From contig JAOAAK010000020.1 of NCBI GenBank assembly GCA_026418905.1, positions 1 to 64,000 of the forward strand: a DNA stretch of 64,000 bases, written 5' to 3'. Each line of letters starts with the position of its first letter. Position 1 is the stretch's first letter. Position numbers and translations under genes: made by a program. Below the pieces are notes generated by a model. It saw nothing but the letters and a program-made list of their open reading frames with translations. It was not told where the DNA came from and ran no database searches. Of this stretch, positions 41,091 to 51,943 are shown one piece after another. Source of the stretch: Bacteroidales bacterium. Its GTDB lineage: Bacteria > Bacteroidota > Bacteroidia > Bacteroidales > DTU049.

Positions 41091-44000
41091 TTATATACCA
41101 GATCTATACAAAATCTTTAATCCGGGTTTTGTTACCACGCCTGTTGATTGCCTAGCATCAATAACAACCTCGACAGGCTCATTAAATTGAACGTGTCGAA
41201 TGAACTCATTTTCATACCGTGCCTCACATCGATCTAAAAAATCATAATCAATCCATCCCTTTTTTTGATAAGGATTTATGGTCAAGTACCCCACTCGAAA
41301 CGAAGTTAAGTTTTGAAAAAAATGCGTTCCCTGGCTTGGATCAATTTGATACTTTTCAAGACTAGTTTCTACGATAACTTTAGCAGCACTTACATGTGGC
41401 CATTTAACTGGTATTCCTAGCCATGGATCGCTCGTACCCCACCGACCAGGACCAATCAGTATATAATTTCGCTTTCTTTGGACAAAAATCTGATTCATCT
41501 TATCGATAGAAGCAACCATTTCCTGAGTCTTAGAGGGATCAAATGAGTTTGGCTTTATATATATAAGATCCCTAATATTTTCATAAACTCCATTTCCCAA
41601 AGCAGAAGGACTGAATATCATACAACATGTAGGAGTAATTTCATTGATCTCGATTTGAACAAGTTCTTTATTATCAACAATAGGTCTTATTTGAAGCAAA
41701 TGTAATATAATACTATCATGGTGAGTTCCATCAAATTGTAATGAAAACTCAATTTCTACTGGTTTACCCATTTCGAATTCACATTTTTTTAAAATATCAT
41801 ATATAGCACCTGAAAGTGGGATTTTGTGATATTTGAAAATATAATTAAATGAAACCACAGGTATCCCTATGCCAGAAGATATAGGCATTTCTGAAAACAT
41901 ATCGTCTTGCACTGAATAAGTAGTCACTGCTTTTCGAACCATTGGCGAATCTAACATATCCCTCACTTTCAATCTGGTAAGTTGAGCGCTATCATCAACA
42001 GAAAAATTCACATAATAATTCGACAAATCTATCACCAAAAATTCTTTTTGTGTTTCTCGTAGCATTAACTCTTTGGTAGAAAGCTGTATGGCTTTTTCGG
42101 GATGCACCGGAGAAATTCGAAGACTTAAACCACCATCCACTATGTATTTTCCAAGACCTAGTGCAACATTGAGAATTCCATCATCAGAGCGTTCACCTTC
42201 TAAAGGATAAAAATTAAGGGATCTTGCCACCCCACTGAGATACGGAAAAAAGTACTGTTTCCATTGTGAGCCACTAACCTCCTGAATAACAATGGCCATC
42301 TTTTCCTCATCAATCACGTTCGATGTCGCTCTAATATAAGATTTACTTCCTTGATAATATACTGAAGCATATACTGCTTTAATTGCCTGTTCCAAATTAT
42401 AAAGCCTTTGTTCAAACGTACCAGTATTAGGAATAAGATAAGTACTATAAATGCCAGCAAAAGGTTGATAATAAGAATCTTCGAGTAAGCTACTCGATCG
42501 AATGGCAAGAGGTTTTTGAAATACATCTAAAATTTTTAAAAAGTCATCTTTCAATTCGACAGGCAAAGGACAAGAAAGAAATTTTTGAAATATTACTTCA
42601 TCATTTTTTTCTTGAGCAGACCACTGAAAAAGTTCATTTTCCTCCATAAATCGAACGAAATAATCGGTTGTCAAAACCACCGTTCTTGGTATAGAAACTT
42701 CTAAGCCAGGGTAAGAATTTGTTAAATTGTATTTTTTTATGATATGATCCAAGAAAGCAATGCCACGACCTTTACCTCCAAGATTACCCTTGCCTAATCG
42801 ACTAACAATCAAATAAGGATTATAAGTTTCCCTGTCAAACGTGGCAATGATGCCTCTACTTCGCTGTGCACGATATCTAGCAATAGAATCATATAAAAAC
42901 TCCCTCACTTCATCGAGATTTTTAAAATCCTGAGTTTTCGCTCTTCTAAAAAGATCTGCCAGTGAAAACAATGCTCTTGCTCTGAGCCATCTAGAAAAGT
43001 GATTTCGTTCAATGCTATATTTCAATGAATTGTGAGGTATCTTATAAATAATCTCCTGCAAAGATGCTAGATCACTAGCTCTCATGATCTCTTCACCGGT
43101 AACAGGATCAATTACAATGAAATCTCCAAACGACAAATATTGCCTAAAAAATTGAATCAGCTCCTGGTGAAGAGTCTTTGAATATTTATAGAGAAACTGA
43201 ACACCTAATTGATCCGCGTATCTTTTATTAGATAAATCAGAAGATTGAAGAAGAATAGGAAGTTGAGGATCCTGCGATCGAACAATTTGGCAAAATTTTA
43301 CACCAGCCATGGGGTCTTTTGTCCCACCACTTTTAAAACTTACATCCGAAATAATACCAAGAATGTTTGACTTGTATATCTCATAATAACTGATTGCCTG
43401 TTCAAAGCTCGTAGCAAGCAATATTTTAGGTCTACCTCGCATTCGCAACATTCTTTGGTGCTCGTTGAGACCTTCAGTCATAAAAAGTTGGCTTTGTTCG
43501 AAAAGAATTCTGTACATGGTTGGAAGGTAACTAGAATAATATCGTACTGAGTCTTCAATAAGAATAATTGCCTGCACGCCAATCTGACGAATATCATGAT
43601 GAGCATTCATTTTATCTTCAATAAGTTTGATGATAGCCAGTAGAATATTAGGGTTCCCCAACCAGCAAAAAATTTGATCTACTGAACTTAATTCTTGGGT
43701 CATGAGCCTTTGTGAAATTTCTTTCGAAAAAGGAGTTAAAATTACAATAGGTACTTGGGGATATTTTTGACGAATGAGATGATTAAGAAGAAAAGGATCT
43801 ATGTCGTTAATACTTAACATGTTGATGACAAGATCTATGCGTTCCTGTTCTAGCATTTCCAAAGCATGTTTACCTGAATGTACCTGAATAAAAGCTGGAG
43901 GATAACGAAGATTTAGAGAAACATATTCTTGAAAAATGCTTTCATTGATTCTTCCATCCTCTTCAAGTATAAATGCGTCATAATAACTGCAAATTAGCAA

Positions 44001-44111
44001 AACATGCTGAATACGTCTTTTCATGAGATGGTCAAAAGACGTATCTTGAAAAAAATAATGCTCCAGATCAAATTTTTCTCTGTATCCCATAGAAAAAATT
44101 TTTTCAAACAA
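41091..44111 (-). CDS. Receiver-like / PEP-pyruvate-binding (PPDK_N) giant protein, copy B
   Basis: The 1006-aa product has a first receiver-like domain (about 30-160), a second one (about 225-345; IISDVSFKSGG holds the phospho-Asp position and LYKYSK the Lys position), a helical linker and a PPDK_N ATP-grasp domain (about 430 onward). Its motifs are LGKGNLGGKGRGIAFLD, AIRSSSLLEDSYYQPFAGIY, and the nucleotide-binding C-part with ILIGPGRWGTSDPWLGIP. The mobile phospho-His and PEP-binding TIM-barrel domains of true PEP synthase are absent, so it cannot run the full reaction alone. It overlaps its paralogue upstream by eight bases; the two are a tandem duplication of about 30% visible identity in the C-terminal halves. 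The family is widespread in Bacteroidota and of unknown function. Confidence 0.75.
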   Translation of the reverse strand: MFEKIFSMGYREKFDLEHYFFQDTSFDHLMKRRIQHVLLICSYYDAFILEEDGRINESIFQEYVSLNLRYPPAFIQVHSGKHALEMLEQERIDLVINMLSINDIDPFLLNHLIRQKYPQVPIVILTPFSKEISQRLMTQELSSVDQIFCWLGNPNILLAIIKLIEDKMNAHHDIRQIGVQAIILIEDSVRYYSSYLPTMYRILFEQSQLFMTEGLNEHQRMLRMRGRPKILLATSFEQAISYYEIYKSNILGIISDVSFKSGGTKDPMAGVKFCQIVRSQDPQLPILLQSSDLSNKRYADQLGVQFLYKYSKTLHQELIQFFRQYLSFGDFIVIDPVTGEEIMRASDLASLQEIIYKIPHNSLKYSIERNHFSRWLRARALFSLADLFRRAKTQDFKNLDEVREFLYDSIARYRAQRSRGIIATFDRETYNPYLIVSRLGKGNLGGKGRGIAFLDHIIKKYNLTNSYPGLEVSIPRTVVLTTDYFVRFMEENELFQWSAQEKNDEVIFQKFLSCPLPVELKDDFLKILDVFQKPLAIRSSSLLEDSYYQPFAGIYSTYLIPNTGTFEQRLYNLEQAIKAVYASVYYQGSKSYIRATSNVIDEEKMAIVIQEVSGSQWKQYFFPYLSGVARSLNFYPLEGERSDDGILNVALGLGKYIVDGGLSLRISPVHPEKAIQLSTKELMLRETQKEFLVIDLSNYYVNFSVDDSAQLTRLKVRDMLDSPMVRKAVTTYSVQDDMFSEMPISSGIGIPVVSFNYIFKYHKIPLSGAIYDILKKCEFEMGKPVEIEFSLQFDGTHHDSIILHLLQIRPIVDNKELVQIEINEITPTCCMIFSPSALGNGVYENIRDLIYIKPNSFDPSKTQEMVASIDKMNQIFVQRKRNYILIGPGRWGTSDPWLGIPVKWPHVSAAKVIVETSLEKYQIDPSQGTHFFQNLTSFRVGYLTINPYQKKGWIDYDFLDRCEARYENEFIRHVQFNEPVEVVIDARQSTGVVTKPGLKILYRSGI

Positions 44112-47100
44112 GATGAATCATGGCTTTTCTTTGCTTGCCATCAAGAAGGATCTGAAATTTAGAGTTAAATTGTACTAAACGTACATAATCCAATTCTTCC
44201 ACTGTCTTTTGATTAACTATCAAATCCCAGTTGATAAAACCCTTGTTATGAACCGGATCAATCGATACATAGCCAATATTTAATGACGTCAGGTTATGAA
44301 AAAAATGGCTTCCCATGCTAGCGTCTAAAGGAAAATCTTCCAACCCAAGCTCTACAATTACCTTTGCCTGTGAAATTTGGTTCCACTGCACAGGTATACC
44401 AATAAACTTATCTCTTGTACCCCAACGTCCAGGCCCTATTAAAACGTAATGTTTCTTTTCAGTAAGCATTTTTTCATTTATCTTTTGAATCTCAGTAGCT
44501 ATAAGTTCCGTTCTTGTTTTATCGAATTGTTCAGGCTTCACATACAATAGATATGAAATGTCACTATATTTTCCATGACCCATGCTTTTCTCAGCTTTTA
44601 TGATACATTTTTCATTAGGCACGCCAGTAAAATCAAGCTTTACCTCAGCTGTATGCCCAAGTAAAGGCTTTATTTGTAGGATGTACATTTCAGCCAGGGG
44701 TTCAGGATTAGATTTAAGTTGTATAGCATATTCAATTTCAACAGGACCACCTATAGCTTCTTTGAATACGTCAAGTAAGAAAGATATGGACTCCGATAAA
44801 TTCACAACTCCATGCTTAAGGATGTTGGCGAAATTAATCACACGAGGTCCCTCTATATGAAGTCCAGGAATCAAAGTTTCATTGTTTGGATCGTACGTGC
44901 TAGCAAGGTGTTTTAAAGTGCCATGTCTTTCTGCATCATAAATGCTTAATCTTGCTAAAGATGACTCCTCACCTTGCAATATATCAACAAATTTTTTTCT
45001 GAGGTCTATGGCCCAAAACTCAGTCTGGCTGTTCTTAATTTCTTCCTTAATGGTTTGAACACTGACTGTCGGATATTTTGGACAAAAACGGTACGATTTT
45101 TCACCTTCTACTACATACTTTCCTAAACCAATTGCCATGACAGCAACACCATCTTCTGGCTCCATTTTCTCTAGAGGATAATAATTGTAAGATTGAGCAG
45201 TTCCCGCAATATGAGGATACCAGTAAGCCTGTTCATAAGCATTCCCAACAACATCTTGAATAATTACAGCCATTTTTTCATCTTCAATCTTAAAACCTAC
45301 CGACTTAAAATAGGATTTTGAGACGGGTGAAAAAACTGAAGCATAAACGAGCTTGATAGCCAAAACAAGTTGTCTAAATCGTTCCTCAAAATCCTCATGT
45401 TGATTGGGTAAAAAATAAGTTTCAAAGATGCCAGCAAAAGGTTGTCTCATAGAATCCTCAAATAAACTAGAAGATCGTATTGCCAGAGGTTTATTAAGAA
45501 TTTTTAATAGTTTCCTCAATTGCTTTTCTAATTTTGGCGACAATTTTGCCTTAGCAAAATTTTTTTTGACTTCATCGTAGTCTTCATTGAGAGCAATTTT
45601 TAGTAAATCATTTTCTCGCATAAAGTATTCAAATTCATCTGTTCCAATGATAGCAGTTCTTGCCACTTTGAATTGCACATTCCCCATTGAGGAAAACAGA
45701 TTACTTATACTGAGAGCAGCTTGCAAGAAAGCTAGGCCTCTACCTTTTCCCCCAATGCTGCCCGACCCCAAAAGAACAATGTTATTATCATCGAGAATTT
45801 CAACTTCATCGAAAGGAACTAACCTGCCTTTATTTTGTTCCTCCCGATAACTCTTGAGAATTTTAAGCAAACCATGACGAATTTCACTCATTGAACTTAA
45901 CGAGAGTATACCAGCATCTTTTATTCTTCTTACAAGTTCAATTTCACCTCGAGCTAAAAGCCAATGAATAAAGTGATTTTTTCTTAGATGATACTCGATT
46001 GAATCGTCAGGAATGTTTCTCAATATTTTTTCAAAATCACGTACATCCTTAGCTTCTGCTATGAAATGCCCTTGCGCTGTTCTGAATGTTAGCGAACCAA
46101 AATTTAGTGTATAGGTAATAAAACTTTTTAATTCATCATACAAAAACTCACTTTCTTTATGAATAAACACACATTTGAGCCGGTGTGCAAGATGTATATT
46201 TTCCAATTCGGTAGAATGTAATACAACAGGTAACTCAGGATACTTATTTCGCAAGTATTCAATAAGTTCTAAACCAGCACGTTCCTCCAATTTACCCCCT
46301 TTATAAAATTTAACATCTGAAAAAACAGTCAGTAAATAATCTCCAAACTGATCAATGTATTCAATAGCTTTTTCATAACTCTGAACATGTATGATTTTTG
46401 GTCTTGTTTTAAATTTCAAAATACGCAAAATAGGATCCTTTACTGTCTCATCAACAACCTTACTAATCTGTTCGAATAAAATGGAGTACAATTGAGGCAA
46501 AATCCTACTTGCATGAACCAAATCGTCTTCAATAAATAAGATGAATCTTACGAAAGCTCTTTGTATATCTTCTCTGAGATTTCTAGCATCCTCTAATAAT
46601 TTCACCATAGTAAAGACAAGACTCGTCTCACCATTCCAAATAAATGCCTTGTCAATCAACTTAAGGGTAGAAGTTTTGGCAAATAATTCTTCCTGACTTT
46701 GCCTTGAGTTAACTAATACGTAAATAGGGATATATGGATATTCGGTTTTAATTTTTGCAATAACTTTTAGGGGAGTCGAGAGATCAGCAGTTATCATGAA
46801 AATAATCAGATCGAAATGCCTGTTCATCAATTTATCATAAATTTCCTCTTCACTACTTGCACCTGTTATTCTAGGGAAATACATTCCTTCTCTAATGAAA
46901 AAATTGTGGAAAAAAACATCGAGAAATTCTCCGTTGTTCACAATGTGAAATGCATCATATAGAGTAGAAATAAGCAAAATTTCTTTGACAGAGAATTTCA
47001 TCAGATCCCTGTATGTATTTCTTGCATCATTTCTTTTTTGCAAAAAAGTCTGAAACAATTTAAAATTATGTTTACCTTGTGATGGAAGTGTTTCTGTTGA

Positions 47101-47556
47101 AGAGGATTCCGAAAGCCACGTCATGGCCTGCAAAGCTCGATGACTATTGATGTAGCCGGAGATGATTACAGCTATATTCTCAATAAGATCTTGTTCTTCT
47201 TTTAGAAATAGATTTTCTAAATTAATTTCCTTAACTATTTCAGATCTATACTGAACAATCACTTTACCTTTAGTTCCATCAAAAGACTGAAAAGATGCCT
47301 CAATGAAAAACTCACCTTCCTTTGCAAACCGATTAGTAGTAAATTGCAACCCCCCATATTCAATCGAAGCTTCTGCATACTCTGGAAATTGCATAGCAGG
47401 GGGTAACAAATAGCAAATATCCTGCAAGGTTTCTTCTAAGGTTTTATTTTCACGAACAACTCGAGATGCCTTATTGATAGCATTCAATTCTTTCAAACGT
47501 TCACGTTGTTCATACTTTAATCTTTCAATATCTTGTTCATTGAAATAAGTCATCAT
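44104..47556 (-). CDS. GAF-like / receiver-like / PPDK_N giant protein, copy A
   Basis: The product is 1150 aa from the ATG at 47556 (MMTYFNEQDIERLKYEQ); the longer frame from 47607 runs into the upstream terminator and is rejected. It has an N-terminal helix and GAF-like sensory domain (about 10-150, with INKASRVVRENKTLEETLQD and FLKEEQDLIENIAVIISGYI), absent from copy B. A first receiver-like domain (about 190-320) and a second (about 370-490, VFSDVKFYKGG) follow, then the PPDK_N domain: LLGSGSIGGKGRGLAFLQ, AIRSSSLFEDSMRQPFAGIF and VLIGPGRWGTRDKFIGIP near the C-terminus. No phospho-His or PEP domain follows. GAF plus receiver modules suggest ATP-dependent phosphotransfer signalling rather than central metabolism, which is inference. 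Confidence 0.75.
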   Translation of the reverse strand: MMTYFNEQDIERLKYEQRERLKELNAINKASRVVRENKTLEETLQDICYLLPPAMQFPEYAEASIEYGGLQFTTNRFAKEGEFFIEASFQSFDGTKGKVIVQYRSEIVKEINLENLFLKEEQDLIENIAVIISGYINSHRALQAMTWLSESSSTETLPSQGKHNFKLFQTFLQKRNDARNTYRDLMKFSVKEILLISTLYDAFHIVNNGEFLDVFFHNFFIREGMYFPRITGASSEEEIYDKLMNRHFDLIIFMITADLSTPLKVIAKIKTEYPYIPIYVLVNSRQSQEELFAKTSTLKLIDKAFIWNGETSLVFTMVKLLEDARNLREDIQRAFVRFILFIEDDLVHASRILPQLYSILFEQISKVVDETVKDPILRILKFKTRPKIIHVQSYEKAIEYIDQFGDYLLTVFSDVKFYKGGKLEERAGLELIEYLRNKYPELPVVLHSTELENIHLAHRLKCVFIHKESEFLYDELKSFITYTLNFGSLTFRTAQGHFIAEAKDVRDFEKILRNIPDDSIEYHLRKNHFIHWLLARGEIELVRRIKDAGILSLSSMSEIRHGLLKILKSYREEQNKGRLVPFDEVEILDDNNIVLLGSGSIGGKGRGLAFLQAALSISNLFSSMGNVQFKVARTAIIGTDEFEYFMRENDLLKIALNEDYDEVKKNFAKAKLSPKLEKQLRKLLKILNKPLAIRSSSLFEDSMRQPFAGIFETYFLPNQHEDFEERFRQLVLAIKLVYASVFSPVSKSYFKSVGFKIEDEKMAVIIQDVVGNAYEQAYWYPHIAGTAQSYNYYPLEKMEPEDGVAVMAIGLGKYVVEGEKSYRFCPKYPTVSVQTIKEEIKNSQTEFWAIDLRKKFVDILQGEESSLARLSIYDAERHGTLKHLASTYDPNNETLIPGLHIEGPRVINFANILKHGVVNLSESISFLLDVFKEAIGGPVEIEYAIQLKSNPEPLAEMYILQIKPLLGHTAEVKLDFTGVPNEKCIIKAEKSMGHGKYSDISYLLYVKPEQFDKTRTELIATEIQKINEKMLTEKKHYVLIGPGRWGTRDKFIGIPVQWNQISQAKVIVELGLEDFPLDASMGSHFFHNLTSLNIGYVSIDPVHNKGFINWDLIVNQKTVEELDYVRLVQFNSKFQILLDGKQRKAMIHLV

Positions 47557-47595: not shown

Positions 47596-47617
47596 AAAGC
47601 TGCCCAAAGGCAGCTTT
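47596..47617 (-). terminator. Terminator between ompH pair and the PPDK_N pair
   Basis: Minus-strand hairpin AAAGCTGCC / GGCAGCTTT with a four-base loop, then seven T. It lies 25 bases after the ompH stop (47642) and ends the bamA-ompH-ompH unit. Confidence 0.85.
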
Positions 47618-47641: not shown

Positions 47642-48145
47642 TTATTTTATGCCTAATTTTTCTTTAACAAAGGGCATAATATCATCAGAATCTTGATAAT
47701 ACAAGAGAACACCAACTCCAGTATCAAAAATATAGGTATAACCTTTTTCCTTTGCAACTGCTTCGATGGCTTTTTTAGCTTTGTTGATTAATGGCTGCAA
47801 TAATTCTTGTTCTTTTTTAGACAAAAGTTCTTGCGACTGGTTTCTGAATTCTTCAATCCTAGTTTGTAAGTCTACCAGTTCTTTTTCTTTAGACTTTTTG
47901 ACAGGTTCTAGATATTTTTCAGAATTTTCAAGATAATCCTGATATTTGGTCTGAAATTCATTGAGCATCATGTTCAACTGGTCCTGCAAATTTTTTGCAT
48001 AATCATTCAAAACTTTTTCTGCAGAATCACGGCCAGGCATTACTTCCATTAAATCATTAGAATTAATATGACCTATTTTAATTTTTTGCTGACCGAAAAT
48101 CATCATTCCACACATAATGAAAACCACAAACGCATATTTTTTCAT
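47642..48145 (-). CDS. OmpH/Skp-family periplasmic chaperone, second copy
   Basis: The 167-aa protein has a signal peptide (MKKYAFVVFIMCGMMIFGQ), a start of the core strand (KIGHINSNDLMEVMP) and a long coiled coil (about 50-125) ending in the strand pair AKEKGYTYIFDTGVG. Skp-type trimers hold unfolded outer-membrane proteins for BamA. It lies 27 bases after a paralogue, which is usual in Bacteroidota. The start follows the pattern of its neighbour. Confidence 0.9.
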   Translation of the reverse strand: MKKYAFVVFIMCGMMIFGQQKIKIGHINSNDLMEVMPGRDSAEKVLNDYAKNLQDQLNMMLNEFQTKYQDYLENSEKYLEPVKKSKEKELVDLQTRIEEFRNQSQELLSKKEQELLQPLINKAKKAIEAVAKEKGYTYIFDTGVGVLLYYQDSDDIMPFVKEKLGIK

Positions 48146-48172
48146 ACAATCAATTTTTGCAAAAATAAGAAT

Positions 48173-48688
48173 TTATTTTTTGTAACCTAATTTTTGAAGA
48201 ACTTCGTCACTTTTATCATATTTATCATTCGCATAGATGACGGTCGTTGAACCAGCTCTATCAAAAATAATTGCATAGTTTCCTTCCGTAGCAATTTGTT
48301 CGATAGCATTATACACCTTTTCCTGTATAGGACGAATCAGTTCCTGTCGTTTTTTGAAAAGTTCGCCTTCTGTTCCAAAATATTTTTTTTGCAATTCTTT
48401 GACTTCCTTTTCTTTGTTGATTATCTCTTCTTGCCTTTTCTTTTTCATCTCTTCACTAAGCAAAAAAGCTTCGTTCTGATACGCTTTATACATCTTATCA
48501 ATCTCAGCATATTTTTGTTCAAGTTCTTTTTGCCATTGCAAACTTAATTCGTCCAACGTATTTAAAGCTTGCTGATATTCAGGAATGTGTTCAAGTATGT
48601 ATTTCGTATCTACAAAAGCAAATTTTTGAGAAAGCAAAAAACCAGAACTCAAGAAAAAAATGCTCATAAAAACTAAAACTTTTTTCAT
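48173..48688 (-). CDS. OmpH/Skp-family periplasmic chaperone, first copy
   Basis: The 171-aa protein has a signal peptide (MKKVLVFMSIFFLSSGFLLS), the core strand KFAFVDTKYILEHIPEYQQAL and a Lys/Glu-rich coiled coil (about 50-125) closing with EGNYAIIFDRAGSTTVIYAN. It is 11 bases downstream of bamA and is expected to deliver unfolded barrel proteins to it. The two copies share architecture and limited identity. Confidence 0.92.
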   Translation of the reverse strand: MKKVLVFMSIFFLSSGFLLSQKFAFVDTKYILEHIPEYQQALNTLDELSLQWQKELEQKYAEIDKMYKAYQNEAFLLSEEMKKKRQEEIINKEKEVKELQKKYFGTEGELFKKRQELIRPIQEKVYNAIEQIATEGNYAIIFDRAGSTTVIYANDKYDKSDEVLQKLGYKK

Positions 48689-48699
48689 ATGATTCTTTT

Positions 48700-51222
48700 T
48701 TAATCAATTGACGAATTAATTGAGAAATGAAACTGTCCCTTAAATGGGTCTTGTATGCCAGGGATTTTATCAAAACCTATGCCATAATCTAAACCCAACA
48801 AACCAAACATAGGAAGGTAGACTCTTACCCCAAGGCCAGCAGAGCGTTTAACCTGAAAAGGTGTAAAGTCTTTAAATCGTAACCAAGTATCTCCACCTTC
48901 CATAAAAGCCAGAACAAAAATAGTTGCCATAGGGTTGGTCGATAATGGATAACGAAATTCCAACGTATACTTGCTGAAAATTGTAGCTCCCACTTGTCTC
49001 CCTTTAGAATCACGCGGGGTAAGTACCTGATTTCCATATCCTCGCATACCGATGATTTCACGTCCGTCTAAAGCAAAACCTGATAATCCATCTCCACCCA
49101 AATAAAATCTTTCGAAAGGCGACAAGCCAACATTAGCATTGTACATTCCAAGAAAACCATATTTTACCCTGAACATGAGGACTAAGTTCTGAATTAGCCT
49201 GGAGTAAAAAGTCATGGATAGTTTCCATTTATGATATTCAAGCCACTTGAATTTCTCTTCATCAGACATTTGAGAATAATCTCTTTTATTCATTAGCGAA
49301 TAAGGGGGAGTAAATGCCGCAGAAATCGAGATATCTGAACCGCTTTTGGGAAAAATGGGATCGAAAGTCGAATTTCTTGAAAGAGTGATGTTTAAATTTA
49401 TGTTGTTAGAACGTCCCTTGGTAAAAGTATAAGCTTCGAAAAAATCATCTAAATAATAATGTTGATAACCCAACGTGTAGAAAATGTTAAAATAATCATC
49501 TGGCCATTTAAGGCGTTTTCCTAGTCCCAAACTAATACCCGTGATTTTAATTACTTGCCTTTTTAATGTGTCGCCCGTTTCACTTAAAGTTCCATCTTTC
49601 TTTTTCGAAATACCATTGGTTTGTATGGAATGATAAACAGTAAAAGAGAACATATTGGGTTTTCGCCCACCTAACCATGGATCAATAAAATTAAAATTAT
49701 AGCTTTGATAGTACAAGCCATTCGATTGTGCTCTGACGGAAACTTTCTGACCATCTCCAGAAGGTAGTGGCCTGTAACTTTTAAAATCAAGAAGTTTCCT
49801 AGCTGAAAAATTATTGAAAGAAAGTCCGAACGTCCCAACTATTCGTCCCATGCCCCACCCACCTGATAATTCCAACTGATCGTTCGAAGTCTCTTCAACA
49901 GTGTATTCCAAATCGACTGTGCCATTAACTGGATCAGGTTTGGGATTGACACCTATTTTTTCATTATTAAAATACCTAAGTTGCATCAATTCACGCTGCG
50001 AACGTATGATATCAGCCCTACTAAAAAGGTCGCCGGGTTTTGTTTTTAACTCCCTAAGTATAACATGATCATTTGTCTTTGTATTGCCAACTATAGTTAC
50101 ATCATTAATGATAGCTTGTTTTCCCTCATAAATTTGCAATTCAATATCGATCGTATCATTGTATATTTTCTTTTCTATGGGACTAACAGAAAAAAACAAG
50201 TATCCATCGTCCATGTATAAAGACGATATATCTTTTCCATTTGGATTCATGTAAAGACGAGTTTCGAGCCATTTTTGATTATAAGGATCACCCTTTTTTA
50301 TCTCAAGAATATTTTTAAGTTGTTCGTCAGAATATTTTACATTACCACTAAAGGTGATATCACCAAAATAATATCTATTACCTTCATCGACAAATACGTA
50401 TACAATCAAACCCTTTTCCCCACGAACGAGAGAATCTTTAATAATACTAGCATCTCTATATCCTTGTTCTCGATATTTCTGCAAAACAAGATATTTGTCT
50501 TTTTCAAAATCCGATCTAATAAGCTTTGAAGTTTTGAAAATTCCATAAATTCTTTTTTCTTTGGTATCTTTCATCGTCCTCTTGAGCTTACTCTCCGGTA
50601 TAGCAGATGCTCCTATAAAATGTATTTTTTCAATTTTAACCCGTTTTCCTTTATTTATTTCGAAAGTTAATGTTTTGTAAGCACCACCGACAGAATCTGA
50701 ACTCAAATAATATCTGACATCTGCCTCATAAAAACCTTTTTTTACAAAATAGTTTTCGATGATTCGTTGAGCATTGAGAATAGCATATGTCGTAAGGATG
50801 TCACCTTTTTTTAGATTTATTTTTTCTTTGATGTTTTTTGCTTCACTTTTCCGAAGTCCTCTGATACCAACAGCCAAAAGACGCGGCCTGTCTTTAATGT
50901 CAATATTGATATAGATAAAATTCCCTTCAACACGAGTAAGTGAAATTGTTACATTTTCAAAAGAACCATTCTTATATATTCGCCGAATAGCGTCTGAAAA
51001 AATATCGCTTGGTAACTTAACCTTTTGCCCAATACTTAATCCGGACAAGGTAATGATGAGATCCGGGTTGGATACATTTTCGCCCGAGACAGTAATGCCA
51101 GCAATTTCATACTCTTTTGGAATTCTGTAATCCAGATTTAGTAAAACTGTATCTTGCTGCGAAAAAATAAAAAAAGATGTTTGGAAGATAAATCCAAGAA
51201 AAAAAGAAAATTTATTCATCAT
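48700..51222 (-). CDS. bamA: Outer-membrane protein assembly factor BamA
   Basis: The product is 840 aa from the ATG at 51222 (MMNKFSFFLGFIFQTSFFIF signal peptide); the extended frame to 51306 lies wholly inside uppS. Residues about 40-430 hold five POTRA domains (for example IAGITVSGENVSNPDLIITL, RVKIEKIHFIGASAIPES, QAIINDVTIVGNTKTNDHVI), followed by the 16-strand barrel (about 440-840) with VSVRAQSNGLYYQSYNFNF and GGDGLSGFALDGREIIGMRGY, a VRGY-like motif in loop 6. The C-terminus ends in an aromatic-rich strand (GQFHFSI). It inserts beta-barrel proteins into the outer membrane. It overlaps uppS by 11 bases. Confidence 0.95.
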   Translation of the reverse strand: MMNKFSFFLGFIFQTSFFIFSQQDTVLLNLDYRIPKEYEIAGITVSGENVSNPDLIITLSGLSIGQKVKLPSDIFSDAIRRIYKNGSFENVTISLTRVEGNFIYINIDIKDRPRLLAVGIRGLRKSEAKNIKEKINLKKGDILTTYAILNAQRIIENYFVKKGFYEADVRYYLSSDSVGGAYKTLTFEINKGKRVKIEKIHFIGASAIPESKLKRTMKDTKEKRIYGIFKTSKLIRSDFEKDKYLVLQKYREQGYRDASIIKDSLVRGEKGLIVYVFVDEGNRYYFGDITFSGNVKYSDEQLKNILEIKKGDPYNQKWLETRLYMNPNGKDISSLYMDDGYLFFSVSPIEKKIYNDTIDIELQIYEGKQAIINDVTIVGNTKTNDHVILRELKTKPGDLFSRADIIRSQRELMQLRYFNNEKIGVNPKPDPVNGTVDLEYTVEETSNDQLELSGGWGMGRIVGTFGLSFNNFSARKLLDFKSYRPLPSGDGQKVSVRAQSNGLYYQSYNFNFIDPWLGGRKPNMFSFTVYHSIQTNGISKKKDGTLSETGDTLKRQVIKITGISLGLGKRLKWPDDYFNIFYTLGYQHYYLDDFFEAYTFTKGRSNNINLNITLSRNSTFDPIFPKSGSDISISAAFTPPYSLMNKRDYSQMSDEEKFKWLEYHKWKLSMTFYSRLIQNLVLMFRVKYGFLGMYNANVGLSPFERFYLGGDGLSGFALDGREIIGMRGYGNQVLTPRDSKGRQVGATIFSKYTLEFRYPLSTNPMATIFVLAFMEGGDTWLRFKDFTPFQVKRSAGLGVRVYLPMFGLLGLDYGIGFDKIPGIQDPFKGQFHFSINSSID

Positions 51223-51943
51223 GTTGAATTTGCTCTGAAATTTTTCCAAAACGCCGTTCACGAGAATAATAATCTGCCAGTGCTTTTTCAAATTCAGTTT
51301 CATCAAAATCGGGCCATAGAACTGGTGTAAAATAAAGTTCAGTATAAGCTAATTGCCAAAGTAAAAAATTAGAAATCCTTAATTCACCTGAAGTACGAAT
51401 TAGCAAATCGGGATCAGGTATATCATTCGTATAAAGAAAACGAGAAAATAATTTTTCGTCAATATGGTCTAAAGTTATTTTTCCATCCAATACCTGACGA
51501 CTAATCTCTCTGGCTGCTCGAACAATCTCACACCTTCCTCCATAATTTAAAGCTATGTTGAGCACAAGGGTAGAATTCTGGGCTGTTTCTTCCTGTAATT
51601 TATTGATCATTTCTTGAATATGCTTCGGAAATTTACTCAAATCCCCAAGTATGCGAAGTTTAATTCCACGACTAGTAAACTCCTCCCGTTCTGAATGCAT
51701 TCTTTCGACAAGTAAATTCATCAACCCTTTTATTTCGTTTTCGGGCCTGTTCCAATTCTCAGTAGAAAAGGCAAAAAGGGTCAAATATTGTATTTTGTTT
51801 TTGATAGCAGTTTTAACAATGGTCTTGACTGTTTCAGCCCCTTTGGTATGACCTGCAATTCGTGATAAACCTTGTTTCTTTGCCCATCTTCCGTTTCCAT
51901 CCATGATGATAGCTACATGCTGCAGAATCTTCTTAGTTCCCAT
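51212..51943 (-). CDS. uppS: Isoprenyl (undecaprenyl) diphosphate synthase
   Basis: It extends farnesyl diphosphate with isopentenyl units to the lipid carrier for peptidoglycan and O-antigen. The 243 aa carry VAIIMDGNGRWAKKQGL with Mg-binding Asp15, RIAGHTKGAETVKTIV, LTLFAFSTENWNRP, and DLLIRTSGELRISNFLLWQ. Family length is standard. Together with bamA and ompH it makes an envelope-biogenesis operon. Confidence 0.95.
   Translation of the reverse strand: MGTKKILQHVAIIMDGNGRWAKKQGLSRIAGHTKGAETVKTIVKTAIKNKIQYLTLFAFSTENWNRPENEIKGLMNLLVERMHSEREEFTSRGIKLRILGDLSKFPKHIQEMINKLQEETAQNSTLVLNIALNYGGRCEIVRAAREISRQVLDGKITLDHIDEKLFSRFLYTNDIPDPDLLIRTSGELRISNFLLWQLAYTELYFTPVLWPDFDETEFEKALADYYSRERRFGKISEQIQHDE

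Follow-up and report, generated by a model that had tools for sequence, protein, structure and literature searches.

The stretch analyzed here, called the window, covers 64,000 nucleotides of contig JAOAAK010000020.1 (contig C20), which belongs to a 2.1-Mb Bacteroidota genome (Bacteroidales bacterium, GCA_026418905.1). Two neighboring open reading frames (ORFs) on the minus strand encode large proteins with an ATP-grasp domain of the PPDK_N family, and an earlier note, made from the sequence alone, had described this gene pair and given its coordinates correctly. The smaller, downstream gene was named A-type (P0001, 41091..44090) and encodes 999 aa from an ATG at 44090. The larger, upstream gene was named B-type (P0002, 44104..47556) and encodes 1150 aa from an ATG at 47556. 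Both ORFs can also be read from longer starts, giving 1006 aa from a TTG at 44111 for the A-type (44111-41091) and 1167 aa from a TTG at 47607 for the B-type (47607-44104). The TTG at 44111 is doubtful because ATG 44090 is aligned with the first methionine of the nearest relatives (L006/L007). The eight-base overlap that had been reported between the genes depends on this TTG, and with ATG 44090 they are separated by a gap of 13 bases. For the B-type gene, ATG 47556 is the likely start since TTG 47607 falls inside a terminator-like stem-loop (47596..47617, minus strand; 9 pairs and a T-rich tail) between a Skp/OmpH gene and the B-type gene. Terminator-like sites in the region numbered four, with 3.9 expected by chance, and this stem-loop is suggestive only.

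AlphaFold models were made for the A-type protein (predicted local distance difference test score, pLDDT, 87.7; predicted template modeling score, pTM, 0.81) and the B-type protein (pLDDT 81.4, pTM 0.60). In both, receiver 1 (REC1) and then receiver 2 (REC2) are joined through a helical linker to the ATP-grasp domain, and an alpha/beta domain forms the C-terminus. All domain coordinates given below are on the minus strand. The domain order, like the ATP-site and receiver residues described below, can be read from the protein sequences.

The ATP-grasp domain was detected by the Pfam model PPDK_N in both proteins (E-value 2.6e-38 in the A-type and 2.2e-35 in the B-type). In the A-type it lies at 41673..42842 (model residues 424-813) and carries K447, R538, E786, E788, Q807, and R809. 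By motif, we take K447, R538, E786, E788, and Q807 to correspond to K22, R92, D321, E323, and Q335 of PPDK. Among 131 relatives, K447, R538, E788, and Q807 are invariant, while the position of E786 is occupied by Glu or Asp. A domain pattern common to so many sequences, with invariant catalytic positions, is not a product of chance. The ATP site is intact in both copies, so the loss of ATP-binding residues that would have spoken against an ATP-dependent role was not seen. The closest solved ATP-grasp domains are those of RPH (Z 26) and HpeI (Z 19).

Neither protein matched the Pfam families PEP-utilizers (PF00391, the His domain) or PEP-utilizers_C (PF02896), and the phosphoenolpyruvate (PEP)/pyruvate barrel was seen neither in the sequences with Pfam nor in the two AlphaFold models. 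PF02896 occurs in this genome only in PPDK, which is complete and lies on contig C30, and no free-standing PEP-binding domain that could complete a PEP synthase is encoded in the genome. A PEP domain supplied in trans was therefore rejected. The ATP-grasp region does match NCBIfam models of PEP synthases, which would favor a divergent but otherwise ordinary PEP synthase or PPDK, but the scores of at most 50 bits are far under the cut-offs of 740-1300, the barrel is absent, and the genome already has a complete PPDK. We find this explanation hardly credible. The A-type and B-type proteins are not PEP synthases, and because the barrel is absent they fall outside the definition of PPDK and PEP synthase. 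Like PPDK and PpsA, they have a PPDK_N domain in which the ATP-site residues are conserved and, after it in the chain as in those enzymes, a domain that by predicted fold is a swivel-like His domain; they differ in the missing C-terminal barrel, in the N-terminal receivers and GAF-like domain, and in a swivel domain that cannot be detected by sequence.

The receiver-like modules that the earlier note had placed before PPDK_N were found as receiver folds in both models, while Pfam Response_reg passed its cut-off in the A-type protein only. In the A-type, REC1 is at 43596..44012 (residues 34-172) and its acceptor Asp is replaced. REC2 is at 43122..43577 (residues 179-330) and has E186, D187, the acceptor D256, S290, and K309; the corresponding residues of REC2 in the B-type are E360, D361, D431, S465, and K484. 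The acid pair, acceptor Asp, Ser/Thr, and Lys of two-component receivers are thus all present in REC2 of both proteins, but not in REC1. Across the family, the five REC2 residues are retained in about 125 of the 126 receiver-bearing members. In aligned relatives, the acceptor position of REC1 is mostly Met or Thr, otherwise Trp or Ala, and no Asp is among the residues listed. Since REC1 has lost the acceptor Asp and REC2 keeps the five key residues, REC1 is a pseudo-receiver and REC2 looks functional. REC2 resembles the receivers of ArcA, PmrA, PorX, and RR468 in fold (Z 12-14) and in all five residues. Unlike in those proteins, the receivers here are fused to an ATP-grasp/swivel kinase and not to a DNA-binding or PglZ output, and REC1 has no acceptor Asp.

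The B-type protein also has a predicted GAF-like sensor at 47104..47517 (P0002 residues ~31-168). Residues 31-168 of the model matched the structure of DosP (231-386) with Z 13.6 and a root-mean-square deviation (rmsd) of 2.9 over 126 residues, which places the domain among GAF/PAS-like folds. Pfam gave no GAF match in the B-type protein, so the sensor reported for "copy A", which is the larger upstream protein, was confirmed by structure where Pfam was blind.

The C-terminal domain lies at 41094..41675 in the A-type (residues ~813-1006) and at 44107..44655 in the B-type, where it contains H1101. In the A-type it carries an invariant GRWG and the motif S-x-G-[ST]-H930-F-F, and it is predicted to be a swivelling phospho-His domain. 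The A-type model aligned past the ATP-grasp domain with PPDK (model 424-1006 with PPDK 3-517; Z 18.6, rmsd 4.8, 357 residues), PpsA (424-1000 with 4-467; Z 26.1, rmsd 4.5, 368 residues), and RPH (424-996 with 2-866; Z 26.1, rmsd 5.4, 386 residues). The B-type model likewise aligned past the ATP-grasp domain into the His domains of all three proteins. Across both models the alignments end at PPDK 488-517, PpsA 466-467, and RPH 866. Because the rifampin-binding domain of RPH precedes its His domain, the alignment has to jump the former to reach the latter. Around H930, the A-type model has a strand, a helix that begins exactly at H930, and another strand, an order that we take to be the one around H455 of PPDK. 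H930, the preceding S-x-G, and GRWG are invariant in the 131 members. As the named loci had been found through the GRWG and His motifs, a set picked by similarity alone (36 members, 37 sequences counted) served as an unselected check, and these residues were present in 37/37. The C-terminal ~170 aa are therefore probably a divergent swivelling phospho-His domain, with H930 in the A-type and H1101 in the B-type as the predicted phospho-His. Of the two domains that had been described as missing, the PEP barrel is indeed absent but the His domain is probably present. An ordinary PEP synthase with divergent domains, which would have contradicted the earlier note, was not found in the barrel's absence, although one of those domains, the divergent His domain, is probably there.

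The two proteins belong to an ancient and widespread family that has no name, and we found no function for it in the literature. Relatives were present in 31 of 40 near genomes. In a sample of the phylum, 41 of 103 genera were matched in a scattered pattern, a count that takes in some genomes with receiver-only matches. Named records with relatives include Bacteroides, Prevotella, Parabacteroides, Lutibacter, Gillisia, 'Chlorobiota', and Delongbacteria. No viral contig matched the family pattern, and BFVD returned nothing specific among structural matches. On a family tree (FastTree, midpoint root), types A and B separated from each other and from a third one, D, with the exception of one fragment. 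B-type proteins may have additional PAS or GAF units, and a nucleotidyltransferase domain is at the end of some of the D-type proteins; such sensor shuffling is typical of signaling proteins. Type D proteins (L042, L079:1224-4406, L041) are ~1065 aa long, with an N-terminal GAF-like region, PPDK_N, and a GRWG/GTHFF domain, and their genes often lie two genes after a glutamate dehydrogenase (GDH) gene. Those of L042 and L079 have a C-terminal NTP_transf_2 domain. A further form, 'type C', has 591 aa with PPDK_N and the C-terminal motifs but without receivers.

The A and B genes are not always found together: they are on separate contigs in G031, G035, and G037, and either one occurs alone in other genomes. 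An obligate A+B hetero-complex is thus a weak candidate, and the hint of one in the earlier note suffers further from the doubtful overlap. The window A-type protein has an end branch of 0.92 on the family tree, compared with a median of 0.25, hinting at faster evolution of the A-type in this lineage. No relative was found in six genomes (G003, G005, G007, G009, G010, and G011), all from one genus of the taxonomic family to which the window genome belongs. This suggests a lineage-specific loss, and the genus would be a natural comparison for GDH regulation.

A striking neighbor of the family is GDH, a partner that the earlier note, in calling for a search for co-conserved His-domain partners, had not foreseen. 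Of the 80 named A loci, which span 17 kb on average, 29 include a GDH gene, while 0.86 were expected from the number of GDH genes and the genome size. The same was seen at 20 of 29 whole-genome loci with flanks of 1.5 kb only. Among the 59 family matches in the sample of the phylum, at least 35 are within 10 kb of a GDH gene. This adjacency of the relatives to GDH is far above chance and is reported here for the first time. The GDHs tested were confirmed by Pfam and NCBIfam and belong to two subfamilies. The GDH gene is divergent from the A-type gene in Bacteroides and Prevotella and downstream of it in several Bacteroidales. The orders GDH-A-GDH, A-GDH-A, and GDH-C-D were seen in Lutibacter, in a metagenome-assembled genome (MAG) of Delongbacteria, and in L153 and L154, respectively. 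The label for linkage to GDH changes 24 times on the family tree, partly owing to contig ends. Genes resembling KorAB (2-oxoacid:ferredoxin oxidoreductase; named by eye from sequence) adjoin about 10 of the 80 loci. A correlation of presence and absence between the family and GDH across the phylum was uninformative, GDH being present in 185 of 198 genomes.

Some loci contain longer arrays. L156 (G070:C10:122500-136500) and L157 (G187:C85:40500-55000) have, on the same strand, GDH, A-type, a PAS histidine kinase, a LuxR-type response regulator, GDH, A-type, and GDH. Each A-type paralog is paired with a GDH there, and a classical two-component pair lies in between. In L079, a contig of a Candidatus Delongbacteria MAG, A-type, type D, A-type, GDH, and A-type genes follow in a row, and this array could be from horizontal transfer or mis-binning.

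The window pair itself is located between Skp/BamA and purH. Ahead of it are a tandem pair of Skp/OmpH-like genes and one BamA-like gene (47642-51306). In L059 and L070 the gene order is Skp, MurI, KorA, KorB, B, A, and the window locus looks like such a cluster that lost MurI and KorAB. The pair had no PADLOC match to an anti-phage system, and that role was rejected.

We propose that the A-type and B-type proteins are regulatory dikinase-type histidine phosphoproteins, which would phosphorylate themselves with ATP under control of the receiver and GAF domains and act on GDH or the 2-oxoglutarate node; we give this proposal about an even chance. ATP bound by the ATP-grasp domain would phosphorylate H930 or H1101 as in PPDK and PEP synthase, and the C-terminal domain would swivel after phosphorylation. 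Since there is no PEP/pyruvate barrel, signaling would make use of the phosphoryl group or of the phosphorylation state. REC2 (D256 and D431) and, in the B-type, the GAF-like sensor may gate the activity or accept the phosphoryl group, and the phosphorylation state would then act on GDH or the 2-oxoglutarate node, most likely the main target of the family. Both the chemistry, that is autophosphorylation, and the GDH target are what we infer, and for the window pair the function is taken from its relatives.

A precedent for such a protein is VadK (Rv1127c) of M. tuberculosis, which consists of an ATP-grasp and a His domain only, autophosphorylates on His422 in the presence of ATP and Mg, and interacts with methylcitrate pathway enzymes encoded next to it (PMC13400623). 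The proteins described here share with VadK a PPDK-type ATP-grasp domain, a His domain (here by fold only), the missing PEP/pyruvate domain, a regulatory role (here proposed), and, in the relatives, genes that adjoin those of metabolic enzymes. VadK is a ~50 kDa truncated PPDK with a recognizable His domain and no receiver or GAF, while here sequence does not reveal the His domain, and GDH would take the place of the methylcitrate cycle as target. The A-type and B-type proteins may thus work like VadK, as judged by fold and not by sequence, and they were not assigned as members of its group because their His domain is not recognizably derived from PPDK by sequence. ATP-dependent phosphotransfer signaling in place of PEP synthesis, as put forward in the earlier note, fits best with an intact ATP site and an absent barrel. 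Its claim that this role had not been described for PPDK_N enzymes does not hold, since VadK already signals without a PEP domain.

Several observations weigh against our proposal. The structural alignments were read as ranges on whole-protein models. Alignment of the C-terminal domain by hhalign gave a probability of 0.3% with PPDK His domains and of 0.2% with a mixed set of PPDK, PpsA, and PtsI, and neither a search of PDB profiles nor Pfam related it to known His domains. Nor does the domain have the GG that belongs to the usual motif, T/SxxGGxxxH. Sequence proof of a PPDK-type His domain at the C-terminus thus failed, and the identity of the swivel domain rests on fold because every sequence method tried was negative. 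As for the target, the window locus has no GDH or KorAB neighbor, and the window genome encodes two GDHs elsewhere and four POR-domain genes. A GDH neighbor is not present at every member, and many Bacteroidota have GDH but not the family.

The main competitor is a small-molecule dikinase similar to RPH or HpeHI, which would phosphorylate a metabolite, for example one near glutamate or 2-oxoglutarate, with the receivers and GAF serving for regulation only. RPH and HpeHI/phenylphosphate synthase do resemble the proteins here in the best ATP-grasp structural match (Z ~26), a swivel His domain (here predicted by fold), and the lack of a PEP barrel, RPH and HpeI are the nearest solved ATP-grasp domains, and two-component small-molecule dikinases exist (PMC12167813). 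But these enzymes have their own dedicated small-molecule binding domain, and no RPH/HpeH-like substrate-binding domain was seen in the Pfam scan or the matched structural ranges, though an unlisted family could escape. Moreover, the type C proteins beside GDH are little more than an ATP-grasp and a C-terminal domain, and inputs through receiver, GAF, and PAS domains are characteristic of signaling, so we consider a small-molecule dikinase unlikely.

It is less likely still that the C-terminal domain carries no phospho-His and that a protein or an amino acid is the direct substrate of the ATP-grasp domain, which might then be, for example, a ligase or a protein kinase for GDH. ATP-grasp enzymes are often ligases, and the C-terminal domain has no sequence homology to known His domains, but the topology and chain order are those of PPDK, PpsA, and RPH in both models and the invariant His is at the predicted position. 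The proteins might also be nucleotide-sensing scaffolds that bind ATP and partner enzymes as an allosteric switch without phosphotransfer. With no PEP domain in trans there is no known phosphoryl acceptor, which would suit a scaffold, but none of the 131 members deviates at R538, E788, Q807, or H930, a constancy that mere binding would hardly need; we regard a scaffold as improbable. Our proposal of a regulatory histidine phosphoprotein also has a bolder form, a full His-to-Asp phosphorelay built from PPDK parts, in which the swivel His, phosphorylated by the ATP-grasp domain, would be the donor for the intact receiver of its own chain or of the paralog, and the state of that receiver would set GDH activity. 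We hold this form to be rather doubtful. If true, two-component signaling would have been invented a second time, independently.

The regulation of GDH in Bacteroides is an old open question, and a ~3-kb gene recurrently beside GDH is a specific candidate for it. GDH of B. fragilis is reportedly inactivated reversibly in vivo. Our literature search on reversible GDH inactivation in Bacteroides turned up no primary paper. A 1996 paper on Bacteroides GDH, considered by its title, offers a lead and not a match because in the Bacteroides loci seen the A-type gene and GDH are divergent, and the A-type gene does not lie downstream. If our proposal is true, the family would join VadK as a second regulatory kinase of the PPDK-like sort, one that carries its own receivers, and it may be a hitherto unidentified switch of ammonia assimilation in gut and environmental Bacteroidota.

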